NCBI GenBank assembly: GCA_028700625.1
Contig: JAQVSI010000010.1
Span: 1 to 35,603, forward strand
DNA length: 35,603 bases
DNA from: Candidatus Shapirobacteria bacterium
Lineage (GTDB): Bacteria > Patescibacteriota > Microgenomatia > UBA12405
Direction of reading: 5' to 3'
Shown: piece after piece, positions 1,638 through 26,111 of the stretch
Layout of the letters: each line of letters begins with the position of its first letter
Numbering within the stretch: position 1 is the first letter of the stretch
The notes under the pieces: model-generated
Told to the model about the DNA's origin: nothing
Seen by the model: the letters and a program-made list of their open reading frames with translations, nothing else
The model's database searches: none
Made by a program: the position numbers and the translations under genes

Positions 1638-2771
1638 ATGTTTTATCCCATCTTTTCAATCAATAATCAAATTTTAAAAAATATTGGTACAATCGAAGGT
1701 GCCAAGGCTATTATTGATGAAGCTCCTTTAATTCCTGCCTACGAGAAACAATTTCAGCAAGAAGCTATTGTTCGAACTGTTCACTTTGGAACTCGTATTG
1801 AAGGAAATGACTTAACTTTTCAAGAAGTAGCCAAGCTAGTCGAAGGTCAAAAAATCACTGCCACCGAACGTGATATTCAAGAAGTAATAAATTATAGAAA
1901 CGTTGTTTCTTATCTCGAAGAACTTTGGTCTCTCTACGATGCTAATATGCCTCTTCCAGAAGAAAAAAATATTTCCAACTCAGAAGACGGCAGTAATAGA
2001 CCTTTTTTCTACAGTGAAACCCTAATCAAAAGAATTCACGAATTAACCACCGCTAAAGTTATTCCTGAAATTGAATGTGGAAAATACCGTCATCAACAAG
2101 TCGTTTTGAAAAACACTCGCACCGGCGAAATTGCCCACCGACCACCACCAGCCATTGAAGTTCCTTATCTTGTTACTGATTTTGTAGATTGGCTCAACAA
2201 TCCCGCTTCAAGAGAAGTTCATCCTACCATTCGTGCAGCTATTACCCAATATGTTCTAGTCGCCATCCATCCCTTTATCGAAGGAAATGGTCGTGTTAGT
2301 CGTGCTTTTGCCATGTTGCCTCTCTACGTTGAAGGTTATGACATTCGTCGTCTTTTTTCTCTTGAAGAATATTTCGACCGAAATGCTGAAACTTACTACA
2401 ACACTTTACAAAGTACTCATGAATTATCTTCCGATATTTTTAAAAGAGATTTAACCAATTGGATTAATTATTTTACTGAAGCTTTAGCCATCGAATTATC
2501 TCGTGTTAAGACCAAAGTTCAATCTCTTTCTCGTGACATTAAACTAAAACAAAAACTTGGCGGTAAACAACTCCATCTAACCGAAAGACAAATTAAATTA
2601 GTTGAATATATGCAACAATTTGGTGGTTTGCGTATGCCAGATGCTCAACAACTTCTTCCAATGGTTTCCGATGACACCATTTGGCGTGACCTTAAAAAAT
2701 TAGTCGATAGCGGTGCAGTTGAAAAAAAAGGTTCCACTAAAGGTGCCTATTACTGCCTAGCCAACGTCTAA
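1638..2771 (+). CDS. Fic family protein (Fic/DOC domain plus C-terminal winged-helix-like region)
   Basis: Fic core motif HPFIEGNGRVSR; Fic_N-like N-terminus; C-terminal HTH-like segment LTERQIKLVEYMQQFGGLRMPDAQQLL. Confidence 0.92.
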   Translation: MFYPIFSINNQILKNIGTIEGAKAIIDEAPLIPAYEKQFQQEAIVRTVHFGTRIEGNDLTFQEVAKLVEGQKITATERDIQEVINYRNVVSYLEELWSLYDANMPLPEEKNISNSEDGSNRPFFYSETLIKRIHELTTAKVIPEIECGKYRHQQVVLKNTRTGEIAHRPPPAIEVPYLVTDFVDWLNNPASREVHPTIRAAITQYVLVAIHPFIEGNGRVSRAFAMLPLYVEGYDIRRLFSLEEYFDRNAETYYNTLQSTHELSSDIFKRDLTNWINYFTEALAIELSRVKTKVQSLSRDIKLKQKLGGKQLHLTERQIKLVEYMQQFGGLRMPDAQQLLPMVSDDTIWRDLKKLVDSGAVEKKGSTKGAYYCLANV

Positions 2772-2774
2772 ATC

Positions 2775-3473
2775 ATGAAAAAAAACAATCTTTTGCTTCT
2801 CCATGGCTGGAGTCAAAATCCAAATTACTTCACCTTAATCAAACCCTTATTAGAAGCTAAATATAAAATATTTTCACCAATTATGCCCGGTTTTGGTGAA
2901 ATAAAAATAAAAAACCCTTATGATCTAGATAAATATGCTGATTGGTTAAAAGATTTTATTATTAAAAATAAAATCACCAACCCAATTCTTTTAGGTCATT
3001 CTTTTGGTGGTTCTGTTTGTGTTAAATTTTTATTCAAATATCCCAACCCAAAAATTAAATTAATTCTTGTCGATGCTGCCATTGTTCGAGATAAATATTC
3101 TTTCAGAAAGAGAATATATTATTTTTTAGTTTATATTATAAAACCAGTAATAAATTTTTTAAGAATCAAAAATTTTATTTTAAAAATAATGAAATTAAAT
3201 AATTCGGACTATCAAAACATCAATAGTCCAATTATGAAAGAAACTTTTCAAAAAGTTATTTATTCTGATCTCATTAAAGAAGCCAGTAAATTGAAAAATA
3301 AAACATTAATTATTTGGGGCGATAAAGATGTTGTAACACCATTAACATTTGGCAGAGAAATTAATAAAAATATGAAAAATTCAATATTAAAAGTGATTCC
3401 AAATTCTGGTCACTTTCCTTTCATAGATGATCCAATAAAATTTATTTTTTATATCAAAAAATTTTCTGTATGA
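2775..3473 (+). CDS. alpha/beta hydrolase
   Basis: LLLHGWSQNP, nucleophile elbow GHSFGGS, late GHFPF His motif. Confidence 0.88.
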   Translation: MKKNNLLLLHGWSQNPNYFTLIKPLLEAKYKIFSPIMPGFGEIKIKNPYDLDKYADWLKDFIIKNKITNPILLGHSFGGSVCVKFLFKYPNPKIKLILVDAAIVRDKYSFRKRIYYFLVYIIKPVINFLRIKNFILKIMKLNNSDYQNINSPIMKETFQKVIYSDLIKEASKLKNKTLIIWGDKDVVTPLTFGREINKNMKNSILKVIPNSGHFPFIDDPIKFIFYIKKFSV

Positions 3474-4666
3474 AAATAAGAAATCTTGTCTATTTAGCTC
3501 AATTAGAAGAATACAATCCAAAAAGAATTTCTGATTGGTTAAGAAAAAACCCTAAAAAAAATCTTATTGAAATCAAAAAAAAATTAATTTTTACCCATAA
3601 AACAATAATGATTTTTGGACTAACAAAAATCATATCTATATTTACAAATTCACAAAAAGCCATTATTTATTCTCTAAATATATTGAACCCAATATATTCT
3701 TTTATAAAATTATTTTTAATATTTCTAGCAAAAATTAAATTAATTATCTTTCATTCAAAATTAAAAACGATAGCTATTACTGGCTCTTGGGGAAAAACAA
3801 CTTCTAAAGAAATTCTCTGGGAATTATTAAAAGAAAAATATAAAAGTGAAAAAACCACTGGGAATCAAAATACTTTAATAGGAATATCAATAAAAATTCT
3901 AAAATTACCAATAAATACCGAAATATTCGTATGCGAAATTGGAGCATATAAAATTGGAGAAATAAAAAAAGTTTGCCAACTATTAAGACCTCAAATCGGA
4001 ATAATTACTGCAATCGGACCAATGCATTTAGAAAGATTTGGTTCAATAAAAAATATCAAAACTGCAAAACTAGAAATTATTAATTCACTACCTAAAAGTG
4101 GAAAAGGTTTTATACCTAAAGAATTAATTAAGGAAAAAAAAATAATCACACATAATAGTAAAAATATTTATTATTTTTCAAAAATTTCAGAAGTCTATAA
4201 ACAGATTGGTGATATTTTTAATATTAGTACAATTGTTTTAGAAAAAACAATAAAAAAACCTCCAATAATTAAGCATCGCCAAGAAATGATGGATACTGGA
4301 ATTGTAAAAATAATAGATAATTCGTATAATAGCAATCCTTTAGGGTTTAAGATGGCAGTTGATAAGCTTTTTGAGCAAAAAACTAAAATCAAAATTATTA
4401 TTACACCTGGAATGATTGAATTGGGAAATTTATCTTTTAAGGAAAATTATAAAGCCGCAAAATATGCATCTCAAAAGTGTACACACGCCATTATAGTAGG
4501 TGACACCAACAAGAAAGCTTTAATTAACGGTTTCAAAAACTCAAAAAAAATAAAAATATTTACTGCCAACTCACAAAATAAAATTGATGAAATTATCCAA
4601 AAAACAATCATCCCAAAAAAAACCACCATTCTTTTTGAAAACGACCTACCAGACAATTATTTTTAA
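3470..4666 (+). CDS. Mur ligase family protein (MurF-like central/C-terminal domains with hydrophobic N-terminus)
   Basis: ATP-binding motif TGSWGKTTSKE; GNQNTLIGI; EIGAYKIGEI; DNSYNSNP; overlaps preceding ORF by 4 nt (ATGA). Confidence 0.82.
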   Translation: MKIRNLVYLAQLEEYNPKRISDWLRKNPKKNLIEIKKKLIFTHKTIMIFGLTKIISIFTNSQKAIIYSLNILNPIYSFIKLFLIFLAKIKLIIFHSKLKTIAITGSWGKTTSKEILWELLKEKYKSEKTTGNQNTLIGISIKILKLPINTEIFVCEIGAYKIGEIKKVCQLLRPQIGIITAIGPMHLERFGSIKNIKTAKLEIINSLPKSGKGFIPKELIKEKKIITHNSKNIYYFSKISEVYKQIGDIFNISTIVLEKTIKKPPIIKHRQEMMDTGIVKIIDNSYNSNPLGFKMAVDKLFEQKTKIKIIITPGMIELGNLSFKENYKAAKYASQKCTHAIIVGDTNKKALINGFKNSKKIKIFTANSQNKIDEIIQKTIIPKKTTILFENDLPDNYF

Positions 4667-5811
4667 TAATCCTTATTAAAAACATTTGATTCATAAGTAA
4701 AAAGAATGTCATTTTTAATTTTATGTTTTTTCAAACCCCAATTAACTAGTTTGTCTAGTAATTTTGTATAACTTAAACCACTTTTTTCCCAAAGATAAAA
4801 AGATAAAGAACCAGGAATTGTATTGATCTCATTTAGAAACAATTTTTTTGTCTTATTATCATACATAAAATCAATTCTTGAAACACCACTTCCACCTAAG
4901 GAAGTAAACGCTTTTTTTGCCCATTCTTGAACTTGTTTTCTTAAAGATTCAGATATTGGGGCTGGTATTAATTTACTGAAATTTTTACTTCCTTTTGTTT
5001 TTCTTCCTTTAATATATTTGTCTTCGTAAGAAAGAATTTTTTCTGTCTTTATTGGCTGTTCACAAACGGAAACTAAAACAGTACTTTCGAATCCAGTTAC
5101 AGAACAATTTATTTCTTTCATATCTATCAATGCTTTTTCTACAATAATTTTTCTATCAAATTTAGAAGCTACTTCAATTGCATAAATTAATTCTCTCCTG
5201 TTTTTGGCGATAGAAATTCCAACACTACTTCCAAGATTAGATGGTTTAACACAAAAAGGATATTTTAATTTTTCAACTCTATCTAAAATCATTTTTTTGT
5301 TATTTTCCCAATCATAAATCCAAAAATATTTAAAAGGGATAATATTAATTTTTTCTTTTTCAAAAATTATTTTTTGAGCAACTTTATCCATTCCAACAGC
5401 AGAAGAAAGAACTCCACAACCAACATAAGGAATATTCATAAATTCAAACATGCCTTGAATTGTTCCATCTTCACCATTCGTCCCATGTATGATAGGAAAA
5501 GCAATATCAAACTCTATTTTTTTGACATAAAATGGAAATTTAACTTCCAAAAAATATTTATTATCAAAAACAACAGGAAGTAATTTACACTTATAAATTC
5601 CACCTAATTTGGATATTTCTTTTTTTTTGAAACTATCAATATTTGTTAATGGTTTTCCTGTTAACCAAGTATTATTTTTATCTATATAAACAGGAACTAT
5701 GTTGTATTTTTTTTTATCAAAATTATTTATTGCTTGACAAGCAGTTATTATAGAAATTTCATGTTCAACACTCCTTCCACCAAATATTACCAAAACAGTA
5801 TTATTAGACAT
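4663..5811 (-). CDS. ddl: D-alanine--D-alanine ligase
   Basis: VLVIFGGRSVEHEISIITA; HGTNGEDGTIQGMFE; CVKPSNLGSSVGISIA; FLNEINTIPGS. Confidence 0.95.
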   Translation of the reverse strand: MSNNTVLVIFGGRSVEHEISIITACQAINNFDKKKYNIVPVYIDKNNTWLTGKPLTNIDSFKKKEISKLGGIYKCKLLPVVFDNKYFLEVKFPFYVKKIEFDIAFPIIHGTNGEDGTIQGMFEFMNIPYVGCGVLSSAVGMDKVAQKIIFEKEKINIIPFKYFWIYDWENNKKMILDRVEKLKYPFCVKPSNLGSSVGISIAKNRRELIYAIEVASKFDRKIIVEKALIDMKEINCSVTGFESTVLVSVCEQPIKTEKILSYEDKYIKGRKTKGSKNFSKLIPAPISESLRKQVQEWAKKAFTSLGGSGVSRIDFMYDNKTKKLFLNEINTIPGSLSFYLWEKSGLSYTKLLDKLVNWGLKKHKIKNDILFTYESNVFNKDY

Positions 5812-5873
5812 AAGATAGTTTAAATAATAACATAAAATAATATTTAAATAAAATATGATAAAATACCGTAAAG

Positions 5874-6188
5874 ATGAGCATTAATCAATGTAAAACTTGT
5901 CCAAAAATTTGTTGTATTGATTTCAGATTAACACAAGAATTGACTTTCCCAAAAGAAACCGAAGAACAACTTAAAAAATATCCTTTTATCCACCGCACAG
6001 ATTTAGACTTGATTATTTTTCATGGACACGAAAAAATGATTGGTATTTATAATTGTAATCGATTTGATAAAGAAACAAAAAAATGTATAGATTATGATAT
6101 TAAAGAAAGACCAGAATTCTGTAAAAATACAGGTATAATTTGCTACCCACACAAAGAATGTATTTTAAATAAGACAGAAGAGATATAA
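5874..6188 (+). CDS. YkgJ-type cysteine-cluster protein (putative metal binding)
   Basis: CKTCPKICC...CNRFDKETKKCIDYDIKERPEFCKN cysteine pattern. Confidence 0.6.
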   Translation: MSINQCKTCPKICCIDFRLTQELTFPKETEEQLKKYPFIHRTDLDLIIFHGHEKMIGIYNCNRFDKETKKCIDYDIKERPEFCKNTGIICYPHKECILNKTEEI

Positions 6189-6195
6189 TTTATTG

Positions 6196-8163
6196 ATGAT
6201 CACTCTTGATTCTCTCGACCTCCAAAAAATAACTCCAGAAAAATTAGGAGAGTTATTAATGGATGCCAAAAAAACCTATTACACCACCGGGAAACCAATA
6301 ATGGACGATCATACTTTCGACACTTTAGAAGAAATTCTTCATCAAAAAAACCCCTATCATCGCATTTTTACTAAAGCTGGTCATAAAAATTTTGATACTG
6401 GTTTTGAAAAGAAAAAACATATCATATCTATGGGTTCCCAAAATAAAGTCAACAAAATTGAAGATTTGATTCATTATTTTGAACTAAAGAATGTTTTACC
6501 CCTTCTTGTCAAAGGAGAGGGTGGGGGGGGATTTTGTGTTCAACCAAAATGTGATGGTATTTCTTTAGAAATCGAATACAAAGAAGGAAAGTTAATCGAT
6601 GCTATTACTCGCGGTGACGGACAAATAGGCGACGTGATTACTCAAAATGTGGTAAAAATGAAAAATTTTGTGATGACTTTACCAAATCACTTTTCTGGTT
6701 CTATCCGTTGTGAAGTCGTTGTACTAGAAAAAGATTTTAAAATCCTAAATAATTTATCAGAAGAAAAATATTCTAATTCCAGAAATGCAGTTTCTGGTAT
6801 CTCTCAAAGATTAGATAGTAAATTTTCTGAATATTGTAGCCTTATTGCCGTCGATGTTTTTTCTGTAGGGACAATGCATGCCTTGTCCCTAACAACAGAA
6901 TCAAATAAAATAGATTTTTTAAAAACCCTTGGTTTCACTCCAGTCGAAACTTTCATTTGTCAAAATTTTGATCAAATTGAAGAAATTTACCAAAAATTTT
7001 TAAACAAAACTCGTCTCAATTATCCCTTTGAAATAGACGGTCTGGTTATTAAAATTAATAATTTAAATATTCAAAATCAACTCGGTTATAAAAATAATCG
7101 CCCCAAAGGCCAAGTCGCTTACAAATTTCCCGCCAGATCAAGTCAAACTAGAATTATTTCCATCGATTGGCAAGTCGGACCACTTGGCATGATTACTCCA
7201 GTCGCCAAGATTGATCCAATCGAAATTTCTGGAGCAGTCATTACTTTTGCTTCCCTCGCCAACTACGATTTGATTAAAGAAAAAAATATTAATGTCAATG
7301 ATATTATTGAAGTCAGTCGTCGTGGCGATGTTATTCCTCATATCGACCATGTGGTTAGCAAAGTTACTCCTGGCCATTTTGAATCTCCAATAAAATGTCC
7401 TTCTTGTGGTACCTTATTAATTTCAGAATCAAAATTTTTAAAATGTCCCAACATTAAAAATTGTTTAGCTCAAATTTTGGGCTCCTTGAAACTATTTTGT
7501 GATTCTCTAGAAATTAGGGGTATTTCCAACAAAACCATAGAAAAACTTTATCAAGCTAATTTAATTAGATTACCTGGCGATTTTTACAAACTTTCTGTCT
7601 CCGACTTTACCAATTTAACTGGTCTTGGTCAAAAATCTGGTCAAAACATTGTTCACCAAATTCAATCCAAGAAAAATATCACCCTAAAACAAATTTTAAC
7701 CGCTGCCAGTATTCCCAATTTCAGTAGTAAACGAATTCAACAATTAATTACTCAAAATTTCGACACTCCAGAAAAAATTCTAGAATTAACTGTCGAAAAA
7801 TTAGAAAGCCTTCCCGGCATCCAAATTACTTTAGCCAAAAAAATAAAGGAGGGGATAGATGCTCGAAAAACTTGGATTCAATCCATCCTTTCCCAAATAA
7901 ATATCAAATCAACGATCAACGATCTATCACCGACGATCTATAACCTAAGTTTTGCCATAACTGGCACTTTAAATAGACCTAGAAAAGAAATAGAAGACCA
8001 AATAATTTCTCTTGGTGGACAAGTCGTTTCTTCCGTCTCCAAAAACACCGATTATTTGATTACTAACGAGACTGAATCTACTTCTAGTAAATTTATAAAT
8101 GCCCAAAAGTTTGGCATAAAAATAATATCTGAAGCTGAATTTGAGTCATTAGCAGTCAAGTAG
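6196..8163 (+). CDS. ligA: NAD-dependent DNA ligase LigA
   Basis: Catalytic VQPKCDGISLE; GQVAYKFPA; four-Cys zinc site CPSCGTLL...CPNIKNC; HhH region; C-terminal BRCT. ATG at 6196 preferred over TTG at 6193 in the ORF track. Confidence 0.95.
   Translation: MITLDSLDLQKITPEKLGELLMDAKKTYYTTGKPIMDDHTFDTLEEILHQKNPYHRIFTKAGHKNFDTGFEKKKHIISMGSQNKVNKIEDLIHYFELKNVLPLLVKGEGGGGFCVQPKCDGISLEIEYKEGKLIDAITRGDGQIGDVITQNVVKMKNFVMTLPNHFSGSIRCEVVVLEKDFKILNNLSEEKYSNSRNAVSGISQRLDSKFSEYCSLIAVDVFSVGTMHALSLTTESNKIDFLKTLGFTPVETFICQNFDQIEEIYQKFLNKTRLNYPFEIDGLVIKINNLNIQNQLGYKNNRPKGQVAYKFPARSSQTRIISIDWQVGPLGMITPVAKIDPIEISGAVITFASLANYDLIKEKNINVNDIIEVSRRGDVIPHIDHVVSKVTPGHFESPIKCPSCGTLLISESKFLKCPNIKNCLAQILGSLKLFCDSLEIRGISNKTIEKLYQANLIRLPGDFYKLSVSDFTNLTGLGQKSGQNIVHQIQSKKNITLKQILTAASIPNFSSKRIQQLITQNFDTPEKILELTVEKLESLPGIQITLAKKIKEGIDARKTWIQSILSQINIKSTINDLSPTIYNLSFAITGTLNRPRKEIEDQIISLGGQVVSSVSKNTDYLITNETESTSSKFINAQKFGIKIISEAEFESLAVK
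6497..6534 (+). repeat. GC-rich insertion-like segment inside ligA with G8 run
   Basis: taccccttcttgtcaaaggagagggtggggggggatttt, encodes LPLLVKGEGGGGF just before the catalytic-lysine motif. Confidence 0.55.
6866..6891 (+). repeat. Palindromic element inside ligA
   Basis: TAGGGACAATGCATGCCTTGTCCCTA, near-perfect 26-bp palindrome encoding VGTMHALSLT. Confidence 0.65.
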
Positions 8164-8268
8164 AAAGACTGCTAACAAATAGTCATTTTCTACTTTTCCC
8201 AATGCTTAGGGTATAAATATATGTCAATCTATAACAATGTATATCATTTATAAATGTTAGAATAACTT

Positions 8269-8793
8269 ATGAAATTAATTATTGGTCTAGGTAATCCAGA
8301 TAAAAAATATCAAAATACTCGCCATAATTTAGGTCAAAAAATTATTATTGATTATGTACGGGTGTATTGCAATACGCACCTTCAAAAAAAATCAAACCTT
8401 TCCGCTCAAATTTACGAAACCGGACAAGGGACTAATAAAACCATTTTTGCCGTCTCTACTGAATATATGAATAATTCAGGTATTACAATTCAAAAAATTT
8501 CTCAATTCTATAAAATCTCTCCACAAGATACTTATATTATTCATGACGATCTAGACTTAGAAGTAGGGGATTCAAAAATTCAATTCGACCGTGGATCAGC
8601 TGGTCATAATGGGATTAAATCTATAATTGAAAATTTAGGCACCCAACAGTTTAATCGTATTAGAATTGGTATCGGTAAACCTCAAAATAATATCCCTATA
8701 GAGGATTATGTTCTTCAATCTTTTTCAAAAGAAGAAAAAGAAAAAATAGAAAATATAACAACTAAGATATTTACAGTAATTAATAACCTTTAA
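8269..8793 (+). CDS. pth: Peptidyl-tRNA hydrolase
   Basis: MKLIIGLGNPDKKYQNTRHNLG; YMNNSG; HDDLDLEVG; GSAGHNGIKSI. Confidence 0.95.
   Translation: MKLIIGLGNPDKKYQNTRHNLGQKIIIDYVRVYCNTHLQKKSNLSAQIYETGQGTNKTIFAVSTEYMNNSGITIQKISQFYKISPQDTYIIHDDLDLEVGDSKIQFDRGSAGHNGIKSIIENLGTQQFNRIRIGIGKPQNNIPIEDYVLQSFSKEEKEKIENITTKIFTVINNL
8356..8388 (+). repeat. Palindromic element copy B inside pth
   Basis: gtac GGGTGTATTGCAATACGCAC cttcaaaaaa; same outer sequence as copy A, core palindrome with two substitutions. Confidence 0.8.
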
Positions 8794-10320
8794 ATGGTAA
8801 AAACTATTTTTAAATCAGTTACTAAATCAATTGGTCGCAGCATTAAAAATGATCCAGAAGTACAACGTCTTCGTCATAAATATCCTCGCTTCTTTAATTT
8901 CATAAAAAAACGTCTTACTCCTAATGAAAAATATGGTCTTTATTTAACTGTAGGTATTTTATTTACCTTATTTTTCATTTATCTTTTCTTTGGCATTGTC
9001 CAAGATTATATTGGTCAAGATATTTTAATTCGAACCGATCTTAGAATTATCAATTTAGTCAGTCATTTCCGAACTCCTTTCCTAAATAAGTTCATGCTTT
9101 TTATAACTTATCTTGCTAAAGCCGAAATTATAACCGTGGCCGTTATTTTTTCTTTAATAATCCTTTTTCTACTTCGAAAATGGTCTTATTTTAACAATCT
9201 TCTAGTTTTTGTTCTTGGTGGTGAACTTTTTGTTTGGATTATTAAAAACATTGTCAGTCGACCAAGACCTCCACTTGCCGAAGCTCTTGTCTCCGAAACC
9301 AGTTATAGTTTTCCTAGTGGTCATAGTTTTGTCGCTATTGCTTTCTATGGACTAATCACTTTTTTTCTATTTGAAACTTGTAAGAAAAAATATAAAAAAA
9401 CTTTAATTTTAATTTTTGGTCTTATTTTAGTAATTTTAATCGGATTTTCTAGAATTTTTCTTGGAGCCCATTGGCCCTCAGATGTTTTAGCTAGTTATAC
9501 TTCAGGACTGGCTTGGTTATCTATAATTATTACCACTGCTCAGATCAAAAGAAAATTTCACCCAAAATTAATCCACTCACCTCATTTAAAACACAAAACT
9601 GTCGCCAAAATTGCTTTATCACTAATAATAATATTTTCCATCTTCACATATCTTTTTTATAAAACTCATCCACTAAAACCAATAAATACAACACAAACTA
9701 CAAAAACTATTATCCAATTAAAAGAAGTTAACACAAAACTTTTTGAAAAATTACCAAAAATCAGTGAAACTATTACTGGTGCTCCAGCTGAACCAATTAA
9801 TATCATTACTATTGCCAGTAAAGATACACTAACCAAAGCTTTCATCGATTCTGGTTGGTATTTATTAGATCCAATTAATACCAAAAATACTTTCAAACTT
9901 ATTAATTCCATCATTAAAAAAAAATCTTATCCAAAAACTCCTGGTCTTCCCGTTTTTTGGGATACTCGTGCCAACGATCTTGGTTTTGGTAAACCAACTT
10001 CTGAAAACTTAGCCAGTTCTCGACATCATATTCATTTTTGGGAAACAGATTTCATCACCCCAGAAGGTCAAACAATTTGGGTTGGAACCGCCCATTTTGA
10101 TCAACAAATTAAAAAGAAGTTTAATATAATTCTTCCGATTCATTCCACTGAGCTAATTGTAGACAAAGAAAGAGAAGAAATTAAAAACACTCTTGAGAAG
10201 AATAATTTTCTCAAATCTTTTGAAAAAATAGATATAACTGGTCTTTCCTACGGAGTCAAAAAAAGTGGTAATAATTTTCTTACCGATGGGCAAGCTTATA
10301 TTTTATACTTAAAAAATTAA
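8794..10320 (+). CDS. PAP2-family phosphatase with C-terminal LssY-like domain
   Basis: KNIVSRPRPP, SYSFPSGHSF, SRIFLGAHWPSDV (PAP2 motifs); C-terminal PVFWDTRANDLGFGKPT...RHHIHFWET (LssY_C-like). Confidence 0.85.
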   Translation: MVKTIFKSVTKSIGRSIKNDPEVQRLRHKYPRFFNFIKKRLTPNEKYGLYLTVGILFTLFFIYLFFGIVQDYIGQDILIRTDLRIINLVSHFRTPFLNKFMLFITYLAKAEIITVAVIFSLIILFLLRKWSYFNNLLVFVLGGELFVWIIKNIVSRPRPPLAEALVSETSYSFPSGHSFVAIAFYGLITFFLFETCKKKYKKTLILIFGLILVILIGFSRIFLGAHWPSDVLASYTSGLAWLSIIITTAQIKRKFHPKLIHSPHLKHKTVAKIALSLIIIFSIFTYLFYKTHPLKPINTTQTTKTIIQLKEVNTKLFEKLPKISETITGAPAEPINIITIASKDTLTKAFIDSGWYLLDPINTKNTFKLINSIIKKKSYPKTPGLPVFWDTRANDLGFGKPTSENLASSRHHIHFWETDFITPEGQTIWVGTAHFDQQIKKKFNIILPIHSTELIVDKEREEIKNTLEKNNFLKSFEKIDITGLSYGVKKSGNNFLTDGQAYILYLKN

Positions 10321-10610
10321 TGACCAAAAACCCCGCCACTTCAATCGGTGATCAATTATTTAAGTTTAAAGAAACTTTAGAAAAAAGAGGTAAATACGTT
10401 AAAAATGAGTTTCAGGCTTATGGCCTCGATTTGGCCAAAGAATTAGACGATTGGAAAAACAAATCTCTTTATCTTCGGCTAGCTAAAACTGTTGATCGAG
10501 AAATTCTAGAAAAAGCCAGATATTTTGTCAAAGACCAAAACCCTGGTACCATTAAAACTCCCTACAAACTCTTTATGTGGAAATTAAAAGAATTAAAAAA
10601 AGAGAAATAA
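10320..10610 (+). CDS. Hypothetical protein
   Basis: ORF translationally coupled (TAATG) to preceding gene; no recognised motif. Confidence 0.6.
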   Translation: MTKNPATSIGDQLFKFKETLEKRGKYVKNEFQAYGLDLAKELDDWKNKSLYLRLAKTVDREILEKARYFVKDQNPGTIKTPYKLFMWKLKELKKEK

Positions 10611-10639
10611 ACCTAATTTTGGAGTATAATACACCGAAT

Positions 10640-11671
10640 ATGTCATTTCTTAAAAAACATTTTAAAAAAATCATTATTATTTCTATTATTTTAATTGCCT
10701 TATTTGTTGGATTTAAAATAAAGAATAGAAATAGTGATCAAAAATTCGATCCTAAAAAAGAAATTCTTGTCAACCCTCAAAAAAAAGATCTAGTTGAACA
10801 AATAACTTTAGCTGGATCAATCGATGCTACCTATAAAGCTGAATTAAAATTTCAAACCGGTGGTCAATTAGCTTGGATAGGAGTAAAAGTAGGGGATAAA
10901 GTTAAAAAATACCAAACAATTGCCAACCTCAACCAAGATCAGCTCAAAAAACAACTTGCAATAGACTTCAACAATTACAAAACCACTGCTTCTACTTTTT
11001 ACGATACTAAAGATCAGTATAAAGATTCTGTAATCACTACTGAAATTAAAAGAATTCTAGAACGCTCTCAAAATACTTTGGATAATTCAGTTATTAACTA
11101 CGAATTAGGAGATTTGGCGATTAAATATTCTCGTCTCTCTAGTCCTATTTCTGGTGTAGTAATTGCAGTTGATCAACCAAACGCTGGAATCAATATTACC
11201 CCAGCCAATAACATTGCTTCTATTATTGACCCTCAAAGTCTTTATTTTAAATCGCAAATTGACCAAGAAGATGTCGTTAAAATTAAAGTTGGTGACAAAG
11301 CCAAAATTAAAATAGATAGTTTTTCTGATCAAATTCTTGATTCTGAAATTACATACATTTCATTCACCCCAGTTATCGGTCAAACTTCTACTGTTTATGA
11401 AGTTAGATTCAAATTATCACTAAATAATGATGATTTGAAATATCGATTAAGTATGGATGGCGATGCTAATATTATTCTTAAAGAAATTCCTAATACTCTA
11501 ACTGTTCCAGTTGACAGCGTTTATCAAGATCAAGACCAACCTTATGTTTTTACTATTGATCAAGACAAAAAACTAATTAAAAAAACTATTAAAATTGGCA
11601 TTGAAACTGACACTGAAGTTGAAATTTTGGAGGGACTTAATGAAAACGATCAAATCGTCATTAAAAAATAA
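10640..11671 (+). CDS. HlyD/MacA-like membrane fusion protein of ABC exporter
   Basis: N-terminal TM; SIDATYKAELKFQTGGQLAWIGVKVGDKVKKYQTIANL; LSSPISGVVIAV; followed by MacB-like ATPase and permease. Start moved from 10577 to ATG 10640 because TATAAT at 10625-10630 lies inside the longer ORF. Confidence 0.85.
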   Translation: MSFLKKHFKKIIIISIILIALFVGFKIKNRNSDQKFDPKKEILVNPQKKDLVEQITLAGSIDATYKAELKFQTGGQLAWIGVKVGDKVKKYQTIANLNQDQLKKQLAIDFNNYKTTASTFYDTKDQYKDSVITTEIKRILERSQNTLDNSVINYELGDLAIKYSRLSSPISGVVIAVDQPNAGINITPANNIASIIDPQSLYFKSQIDQEDVVKIKVGDKAKIKIDSFSDQILDSEITYISFTPVIGQTSTVYEVRFKLSLNNDDLKYRLSMDGDANIILKEIPNTLTVPVDSVYQDQDQPYVFTIDQDKKLIKKTIKIGIETDTEVEILEGLNENDQIVIKK

Positions 11672-23341: not shown

Positions 23342-24292
23342 CTATTTATTTCCCGAATGAAATTTTTCATGAACTTCTCGCAATCTAGCATCCGTCACAT
23401 GAGTATAAATTTGAGTTGTGGCAATATTTTTATGTCCCAAAAGTTCTTGAACCGATCTTAGGTCAGCTCCAGATCTCAAAAGATCTGTAGCCATTGAATG
23501 TCTTAAGGTGTGGGGTGTCGCATCTACTGGTAAGTTAGCAGTTTTCACATAGTGTTTAACTAATCTTTGTATAGATCTTGCTGTTAGTCTAACTTTTTCA
23601 TCTCCAAGTGGAATTTCATTCGGTCTCAAATCTCTAATAAACAGGGGTTTATACTTATCTTCGCGACTCATTAAATATTTTGCGACATGGTCAGCTGCTT
23701 GTTTAGAAATAAAAACCACTCTCGCTCGACCACCTTTACCAATCACTCCAAACTCCCTAGTTTTCAAATTAATTTGATCACGATCTAAGTGAACCAATTC
23801 AGAAACACGTAATCCAGTTGAAAATAAAAGTTCTAAAATGGCTCGATCCCTAAAACCATTTTTGCTAGAGGGGATTGGTTGTACTAAAAGTCTCTCCATC
23901 TGCTGAGCATCCAAAAACTTCAAAGAATGATCTTTAACTTTGGGCACATCCAACTTTTCTGGTTGAAGCACCTTATAGTCGTTTTTGATTAGCCATTTTA
24001 AAAACGATCTTAAAGCAATCACGTAATAACCCTGAGTTACCAATTTCATTTCTCCTATACTTCCCTTCTGTCTGGCCAAAAAAAGTCTAAACCTTCTCAC
24101 CACATCCACTGTTATTTCATTAACAGTAAGTTTCTTATCTTTATTCTCTTCCGACAGAAAATGCATTAACACATCTAAATAATGTTGGTAATTTCTAATT
24201 GTCAGTCTTGAGCAGTTTTTTTCAATTTCCAAATGCTCCAAAAATCGCCTTATTAAAATACCCAAATCATTTTCCATAAACAATCTTACCAT
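23342..24292 (-). CDS. xerD: Tyrosine recombinase XerC/XerD-like
   Basis: FSTGLRVSEL (Arg I), HTLRHSMATDLL, LLGHKNIATTQIYTHV (His...Tyr). Confidence 0.93.
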   Translation of the reverse strand: MVRLFMENDLGILIRRFLEHLEIEKNCSRLTIRNYQHYLDVLMHFLSEENKDKKLTVNEITVDVVRRFRLFLARQKGSIGEMKLVTQGYYVIALRSFLKWLIKNDYKVLQPEKLDVPKVKDHSLKFLDAQQMERLLVQPIPSSKNGFRDRAILELLFSTGLRVSELVHLDRDQINLKTREFGVIGKGGRARVVFISKQAADHVAKYLMSREDKYKPLFIRDLRPNEIPLGDEKVRLTARSIQRLVKHYVKTANLPVDATPHTLRHSMATDLLRSGADLRSVQELLGHKNIATTQIYTHVTDARLREVHEKFHSGNK

Positions 24293-24638
24293 GTTGGCAC
24301 TTTTTCAAGACAGATCCAATCAATTTAATAAATAAAGAGGTAAAAGTAATCGGCAGTTTTATTATTTGCGTTTACAGGGGCTCTGATGACGTTTTAGGTT
24401 CAATTTTGCCTATCATTAGGCACAAAATCCAAAATCTCCTGTCCAAAAAAGACATAGGGGAGTCAACCACCAAAATTTAAGGCCAAAGTTATAAATTTAA
24501 AAGAAAAAGACCAAATGGGGAATTAGGGCTTTTTAAATAAATTAAACAAATAAAGATAAATCCAGTGATTTAAAATTGGAAATTAAAAATTAGAAATTAG
24601 TTTAAAAATAGCCCTCCCCCTACCTAAATATTTACATA

Positions 24639-24666
24639 ATGTCGCAAAAGATACATTGTGCGACAT
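24639..24666. other. Candidate dif-like Xer recombination site (11-6-11 inverted repeat)
   Basis: ATGTCGCAAAA GATACA TTGTGCGACAT; arms match at 10/11 positions; upstream of the xer gene. Confidence 0.5.
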
Positions 24667-24841
24667 AGCATATTTAGCCTCCTTCTGCTAGGAGATAGCA
24701 ATTAAATCTCTTCTCTCTCACTTGTCTTTTTCACCATTAATTAAATATTGAATATTAGAAATTGGTAATTAATTACGTCTTCTCCTCCCTCTTGGAGACT
24801 CCACTTTGATACATTCAGCCGAATATGAGTTTTCCACAGAG

Positions 24842-24924
24842 ACTATATCACACTATATCACCTGCTCCGTGAAAACTATAGGATATTTCGTGAAAATATT
24901 ATAGGATGTTATATATTATAGGAC
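24842..24924. repeat. Iteron-like repeat cluster
   Basis: Two tandem ACTATATCAC (24842-24861), CGTGAAAActATAGGAT (24868-24884), CGTGAAAAtattATAGGAT (24889-24907), third TATAGGAC (24917-24924). Confidence 0.65.
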
Positions 24925-25166
24925 TCCCCTCTGCCCTGCCTACCTGTCATTTATTTTTTAAAAAATCTGAACCTAATTAAAGCTAAACAATTACTCTGTC
25001 TGTAACTTATTATTTAATATCTAAACTGACATCTGAAATCTGAGAACTGAGATCTAAGTTCCCTTCACTCCCCTTTTTTAACATATTAATATATAAATAT
25101 TACCTATCTTTCCAATAAAAACAATCAAATTCTATTTAATATCCTCATTTTTATATATAATAGGCA

Positions 25167-26111
25167 ATGAATCAAATTATTGAAAATATTTATCAACAAG
25201 CCAAATTAAATTATAAAAAAATTGTTCTTCCGGAAGGTACCGATAACAGAATTATCCAAGCTGCTAAAATAATCCGTGATCAAAAAATTGCCGAAGTCAT
25301 AATTTTAGGCTCAAATCCAGATTCTGATATTAATCCTAAAAAGTCCCCTCTTCTAGACCAATTTGCCACGACTCTTTTTGAATTAAGAAAAGACAAAGGT
25401 TTAACCTTAGATGAGGCAAAAGTTCTAGTTAAAGATCCAATTTATTTTGGCACTTTAATGGTTCATCTTGGTCTAGCTGATGGTCTAGTTGCCGGAGCTA
25501 TCCATACCACTCTTGACACTCTTAAGCCATCTCTTCAAATTATTAAAGCCAAAGAAAATTCAAAATTAGTTTCTAGTTTTTTTATTATTGAAACTAAAAA
25601 TAAAGATATTGGTGAAGACGGTTTATTGTTTTTTGCCGATTGTGGCCTAAATGTTAGTCCAACTGCTGAAGATTTATCTGAAATTACTATTCAAACAGCC
25701 AAATCTTTTAATCTTCTTACCAAAAAAATTCCTCTAATTGCTATGCTTTCTTATTCAACCAATAGCAGTGCTAAGGGTGAATCAGTCGACAAAGTTAAAC
25801 TTGCTACTAATTTAGTTCGTCAAAAAAATCCTGACTTAATTATAGAAGGTGAATTACAAGGTGATGCTGCTTTAGTTCCTCGTATTTGTGATCTTAAATT
25901 TCCTGGAAACTGTATAGGTGGTCAAGCTAATATTTTAATTTTCCCAGACCTAAATTCTGGAAACATCGCCTATAAATTAGTAGAAAGAATTGCTCAAGCC
26001 AAGGCTTATGGTCCTCTTACTCAAAATATGAAAAAACCAATTAATGATCTTTCTCGTGGCTGTAGTATCGAAGACGTTGTTACTACTGTTGCTATTACTT
26101 GTGTTCAGTAG
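25167..26111 (+). CDS. pta: Phosphate acetyltransferase
   Basis: KIVLPEGTDNRIIQAA; GLADGLVAGAIHTTLDTLKPSLQII; LSYSTNSSAKG; PDLIIEGELQGDAALVP; FPDLNSGNIAYKLVER. Confidence 0.92.
   Translation: MNQIIENIYQQAKLNYKKIVLPEGTDNRIIQAAKIIRDQKIAEVIILGSNPDSDINPKKSPLLDQFATTLFELRKDKGLTLDEAKVLVKDPIYFGTLMVHLGLADGLVAGAIHTTLDTLKPSLQIIKAKENSKLVSSFFIIETKNKDIGEDGLLFFADCGLNVSPTAEDLSEITIQTAKSFNLLTKKIPLIAMLSYSTNSSAKGESVDKVKLATNLVRQKNPDLIIEGELQGDAALVPRICDLKFPGNCIGGQANILIFPDLNSGNIAYKLVERIAQAKAYGPLTQNMKKPINDLSRGCSIEDVVTTVAITCVQ

Follow-up and report, generated by a model that had tools for sequence, protein, structure and literature searches.

A 28-bp palindrome lies upstream of a tyrosine recombinase gene in the genome of an uncultured Shapirobacteria bacterium, and the question it raises is whether this is the chromosomal dif site, at which chromosome dimers are resolved, or a sequence of some other kind. 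The stretch of DNA analyzed here (the window; 35,603 nucleotides) is all of contig 32 of the source genome (G000; 813,330 bases in 55 contigs, 96.65% completeness). On the + strand the sequence at 24639-24666 is ATGTCGCAAAA-GATACA-TTGTGCGACAT; read on the - strand, towards the recombinase gene, it is ATGTCGCACAA-TGTATC-TTTTGCGACAT. By alignment with E. coli dif, the left arm ATGTCGCACAA (24656-24666, - strand), which is conserved class-wide, is the XerC side and the right arm TTTTGCGACAT (24639-24649, - strand) the XerD side. Between them lies the centre TGTATC (24650-24655, - strand), the putative strand-exchange region. In the ORF map the site falls in a non-coding interval (24293-25166) bounded on one side by xer (23342-24292, - strand), whose 316-aa product, P0001, is proposed to act at the site. 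On the other side is a + strand ORF of 314 aa (25167-26111) that by eye is putatively phosphate acetyltransferase-like and lies outside the system.

The shape is that of a dif site, with two 11-bp arms around a 6-bp centre. The initial annotation had described an 11-6-11 inverted repeat with 10 of 11 arm positions matching, and this is exact as written. The distance to xer, given there as about 350 bp, is 346 bp from the start of the gene; the 18 of 28 matches to the E. coli dif sequence given there were counted correctly, and the switch in gene orientation around the site is present at the scale of the window. However, such repeats are not rare here. With at least 10 of 11 positions paired, five were observed in the window compared with 1.7 expected under a first-order Markov model, so that the palindrome by itself is only suggestive. 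Requiring at least four G/C in the arm gave two compared with 0.17 expected under the same model. It is conservation that carries the identification as dif.

A single occurrence of the 28-mer was found, both in the window and in the genome as a whole, when up to 3 mismatches were tolerated, as expected of a sequence present in one copy per chromosome. Conservation in close relatives and linkage to xer had been proposed as checks, and both bore the site out. In the family, the pattern with correct spacing was present in 32 of 35 genomes (≤2 mismatches), some of these being chance matches. At 29 of 30 family loci the orthologous xer has the site approximately 0.3-1.3 kb upstream, always in the same orientation; at the thirtieth, just 260 bases of the contig lie upstream of the match. 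All 20 high-quality family genomes searched contain the conserved xer and a single-copy orthologous site. Most family copies differ just in the outermost bases or by C/T (G/A) at one arm position, and the centre is fixed. In two divergent genomes (G008 and G032, with sites ATTTCGCAGAATGTATCTTTCACGAAAT and ACTTCGTAGAATGTATCTTTCACGAAGT), both arms are altered in step (TTTCG..CGAAA and TTCG..CGAA), which is expected if a recombinase evolves in concert with the two half-sites it binds.

The arm pattern is also common beyond the family. Allowing one mismatch, it was found in 177 of 281 class genomes, nearly always in one copy, and in 155 of 380 genomes of a phylum sample, again almost always in one copy. 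The reversed control pattern gave no matches in the 281 class genomes, showing that the conservation is far beyond chance, and reversed controls also gave none in the phylum sample. By contrast with the arms, the centre varies between families (TAATAC, TATAAC, TGATAC, and TATATC among others), within the limit that the arm search pattern fixes its first base as T. The neighbouring lineage labelled Woesebacteria likewise keeps the arms with an altered centre (TATAAC, TAATAC, TGTAAC, or TATACC). Constant arms around a lineage-specific centre are characteristic of the core site of a tyrosine recombinase. Linkage to xer is a lineage trait that is present in the window's family (f1) and in f27; families f7 and f11 retain the site with no xer within 1.5 kb of it. 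When the xer loci of Saccharibacteria and Peregrinibacteria, among others, were scanned with a position weight matrix, nothing convincing turned up at distances of up to 6 kb from xer. Several family genomes (G008, G014, G021, and G024) contain another palindrome that looks conserved, TGTCGYAT-TATGCCTGA-ATACGACA.

A dif site is expected where GC skew passes from positive to negative. Because the source genome is in 55 contigs, its terminus position was read from relatives, and the window itself shows a local drop only. The lack of an obvious skew flip had been held against the site in the initial annotation. The sign indeed stays the same, yet the skew falls across the site from -0.066 in the 10 kb on the left to -0.342 in the 10 kb on the right. 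A drop was observed in 23 of 24 loci; these share neighbouring genes and thus amount to one observation repeated, not 24 independent ones. In a complete chromosome of the class (G050), the skew in 2-kb windows is +2.9% before the site (112,657) and -2.8% after it, with the sign change no more than 2 kb away and dnaA (478,725) at the opposite skew change. In the complete 902-kb chromosome G297 (CP055307; 150 kb of the record masked), the cumulative skew maximum (794,108) is 14 kb from the site (779,672), and dnaA (131,680) is near the skew minimum (148,629); the largest skew drop at the 100-kb scale is near 680 kb, away from the site. In G124, another complete relative, the skew is negative throughout, and the site marks a step in it from about -29% to about -50%. 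The exception is the complete chromosome G069, where the sign changes approximately 80 kb from the site. Thus, the site is at or near the skew maximum in G050 and G297 and at a step in G124, and the objection is answered by the fact that on some chromosomes of the class the skew keeps a single sign overall and shows a step where the site lies. Skew of a single sign, with only a step at the terminus, was seen in the parts read of G124:C1 (about -15 to -50%), in G013:C3, and in the window.

We compared P0001 with known Xer proteins. All six catalytic residues of the R, K, H-x-x-R, H, Y set are present (R162, K186, H261, R264, H287, and Y296). The protein matches the XerC, XerD, XerA, and XerS models but is below the cut-off of every one. 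The curated NCBIfam cut-offs for the XerC and XerD equivalogs are missed at 242.2 compared with 335.15 bits and 237.1 compared with 329.6 bits, respectively, the XerA score is 216.2 bits against a cut-off of 220, and the XerS score is 133.7 bits against 267. The best solved relative is E. coli XerD (1a0p), and the closest named relative by this protein is a Ca. Shapirobacteria MAG with a Xer that is 93% identical. This one protein suggests that the source organism is a Patescibacteria of that kind. Judged by these matches, P0001 is a member of the Xer superfamily that is not assignable to XerC or XerD. The initial annotation had suggested a single recombinase acting on both arms, as in XerH/difH or XerS/difSL. 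One recombinase is still likely to serve both arms, but the size of P0001 is XerC/XerD-like and not that of the long XerS/XerH type.

The main alternative to a single recombinase is that the linked Xer and a second Xer-like protein act together on dif, as XerC and XerD do. A second, diverged Xer-like protein of 289 aa is indeed encoded in the source genome (G000:C46:24270-25028; L003), and most family genomes have such a protein (approximately 290-330 aa) that matches XerD/XerC models. The asymmetry of the inner arm halves (ACAA compared with TTTT) also fits two proteins. However, in the two genomes where this was checked (G000 and G013) the catalytic HxxR histidine of the second protein is an asparagine (NDLR). 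In addition, the second protein is unlinked to the site, and the close match between the outer arms fits recognition by one protein. We consider this two-protein arrangement unlikely. By eye, the gene for the second protein adjoins a VirB4/TraG-like ATPase ORF.

The source genome also encodes, on another contig, an FtsK with a gamma domain that scores above cut-off. In E. coli FtsK the XerD-activating motif is RQFRIGYNR (PMC5052618), and the source FtsK has RKLSVGYAR at this position. The E. coli XerD residues that contact FtsK gamma are E183/E184, Y187, and W188 (PMC5052618). A point against the dif reading is that, in the alignment with XerD, these are not kept in P0001, which has K/Q, D, and H, respectively. 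Together, the single copy, the conservation, the constant arms with lineage-specific centres, the linkage to xer, the position relative to skew, the catalytic residues, the FtsK gamma domain, and the provirus junctions described below lead us to conclude, with high confidence, that the 28-mer is the chromosomal dif site of the source genome. It is functionally an ordinary site of known kind. We infer that the neighbouring xer product would bind both 11-bp arms. When recombination between sister chromosomes leaves a dimer, FtsK would bring two dif copies together at the division septum, and the recombinase would then exchange strands across TGTATC, restoring two monomers.

As a comparison, the site resembles E. 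coli XerCD/dif, and bacterial dif sites in general, in its 28-bp length, 11-6-11 form, terminus location, and single copy. The likeness to E. coli extends to the FtsK gamma domain, the XerC/D-type recombinase, and a matching inner sequence (CGCAxAATGTATxTTxTG). It differs from the E. coli system in that xer adjoins the site in the window's family and in f27, the outer arms are near-perfect inverted repeats, and just one catalytically complete Xer was seen in the genome. A recombinase gene adjoining its site is a feature shared with XerS/difSL of streptococci and lactococci and XerH/difH of epsilonproteobacteria, in each of which one recombinase gene is beside its site (PMC5357621). Both XerS and XerH are longer proteins, of 354-362 aa, and difSL is a 31-bp site in which the centre is large (PMC5357621), whereas the recombinase here is 316 aa and nearest to XerD/XerC/XerA, and the site has the canonical 28 bp. 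The XerS score and the site length therefore place it outside the XerS/difSL class. Archaeal XerA/dif has a single recombinase, as is likely here, and P0001 is near the XerA cut-off; archaeal XerA/dif is FtsK-independent (PMC5357621), unlike this system, in which an FtsK with a gamma domain is present.

A viral contig provided natural evidence of crossovers within such a site. In L195, an IMG/VR contig of 9,208 bp, a 5.3-kb element at 2225-7564 adjoins a murG-like gene. The element encodes a Rep of the rolling-circle type (PF23343; phrog_3419) together with an ATPase that falls into one group with Zot-like proteins from other contigs. A full site is at 2225, and at 7537 there is the same left arm and centre with a different right arm. 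Thus, the left arm is retained at both junctions, which share a 21-bp identical block with differing flanks and fall in the arm and centre. The L195 element is an inovirus (filamentous-phage)-type provirus inserted at a dif site with TLCphi-type junctions (as described in PMC5357621), where one arm and the centre are kept and the other arm is divergent. With dif at one end and a hybrid dif-like site at the other, it belongs with the IMEX filamentous phages (CTXphi, VGJphi, and TLCphi), and it is predicted to use the host Xer. It differs from known IMEX in its host, which the site suggests to be one of the Patescibacteria.

These data also bear on two other explanations of the palindrome itself, neither of which we retain. 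One is that it is an operator for a dimeric regulator of xer or of the divergent neighbour gene, as its intergenic position upstream of a gene and its near-perfect outer arms might suggest. Yet an operator gives no reason to keep the arms and the ACAA/TTTT asymmetry while the middle 6 bp swaps between families, nor for the variable distance to xer, the retention of the site in f7 and f11, its one copy per genome tracking the skew change, or its use as a provirus junction in L195, and we regard this explanation as highly improbable. The other is that the sequence belongs to a mobile element travelling with its recombinase, as attachment site or remnant, and has no housekeeping role in the chromosome. 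This is hinted at by the linkage to a protein of the phage-integrase superfamily and by similar sites on viral contigs, but it has next to no chance of being correct given the vertical, single-copy, orthologous site and xer in all 20 high-quality family genomes, the class-wide distribution of the site, its persistence in families where linkage is lost, and the absence of phage genes adjoining it in the window.

The dif site identified here defines the dimer-resolution site for a large uncultured bacterial branch and provides a searchable consensus, GTCGYACAAT-NNNNN-TTTTRCGAC. Our search of the open literature returned no description of dif in this phylum; absence there is not proof of novelty. 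The site can serve as a terminus marker for fragmented genomes. It is also a DNA tag by which viral contigs can be assigned to hosts among the Patescibacteria, a group with few phage-host links, and the wider set of viral sites is of greater interest than the host dif.

Exact matches to the arm pattern were found in 72 IMG/VR contigs (L169-L240), many of which carry terminase, portal, primase, or capsid genes. At all 34 loci with recognised terminase families (F1, F2, and F12), the site is upstream of the terminase gene, which points away from it; the orientation of the site itself varies among these loci. An 11.5-kb phage contig in a same-genus bin (G004:C4; L293) has a dif-like site at 5944-5971, with centre TCTACA, upstream of TerL (7330-9018) and portal (9150-10988) genes, both identified with PHROGs. 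No PF00589 recombinase was found in 27 of the 31 viral contigs above 30 kb, which may be incomplete. Viral centres are diverse, with 31 kinds in the 72, and only 11 of the 72 also appear in the class and phylum tables of host centres. The last base of the centre is A in 48 of the 72 but C in every one of the 148 class sites listed. Because centres ending in A do occur in other classes of the phylum, this contrast is limited to the class. These host and viral tallies rest on the matches listed, from a search pattern in which the centre must begin with T.

Two sites are hardly ever seen in one host genome, from which it appears that insertion of such phages at dif is uncommon, and we therefore propose resolution or circularisation by the host Xer instead. 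Tailed phages of Patescibacteria would carry dif-like sites, with host arms and private centres, upstream of terminase genes so that the host Xer resolves or circularises their genomes, while the differing centre blocks crossover with the host dif. We give this proposal an even chance of being correct. The working analogy is with element-borne resolution sites such as cer/psi of plasmids and P1 loxP, here placed near packaging genes. The role would be loxP-like but without a phage recombinase, as in the 27 contigs above. The phage sites also yielded no clear accessory sequences: direct and inverted repeats flanking them had looked promising by eye but were not above shuffled pairings and were discarded. 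VGJphi-type integration needs homology on one side only and is possible for phages with TATxxx or TAATxx centres. Two viral loci have additional features. At L175:3336-4755 a dif-like site with the host-like centre TATATC adjoins the contig's own tyrosine recombinase, and at L236:86-134 a second half-site, ATGTCGCACAATGTAGGGTTA, is directly beside the viral site.
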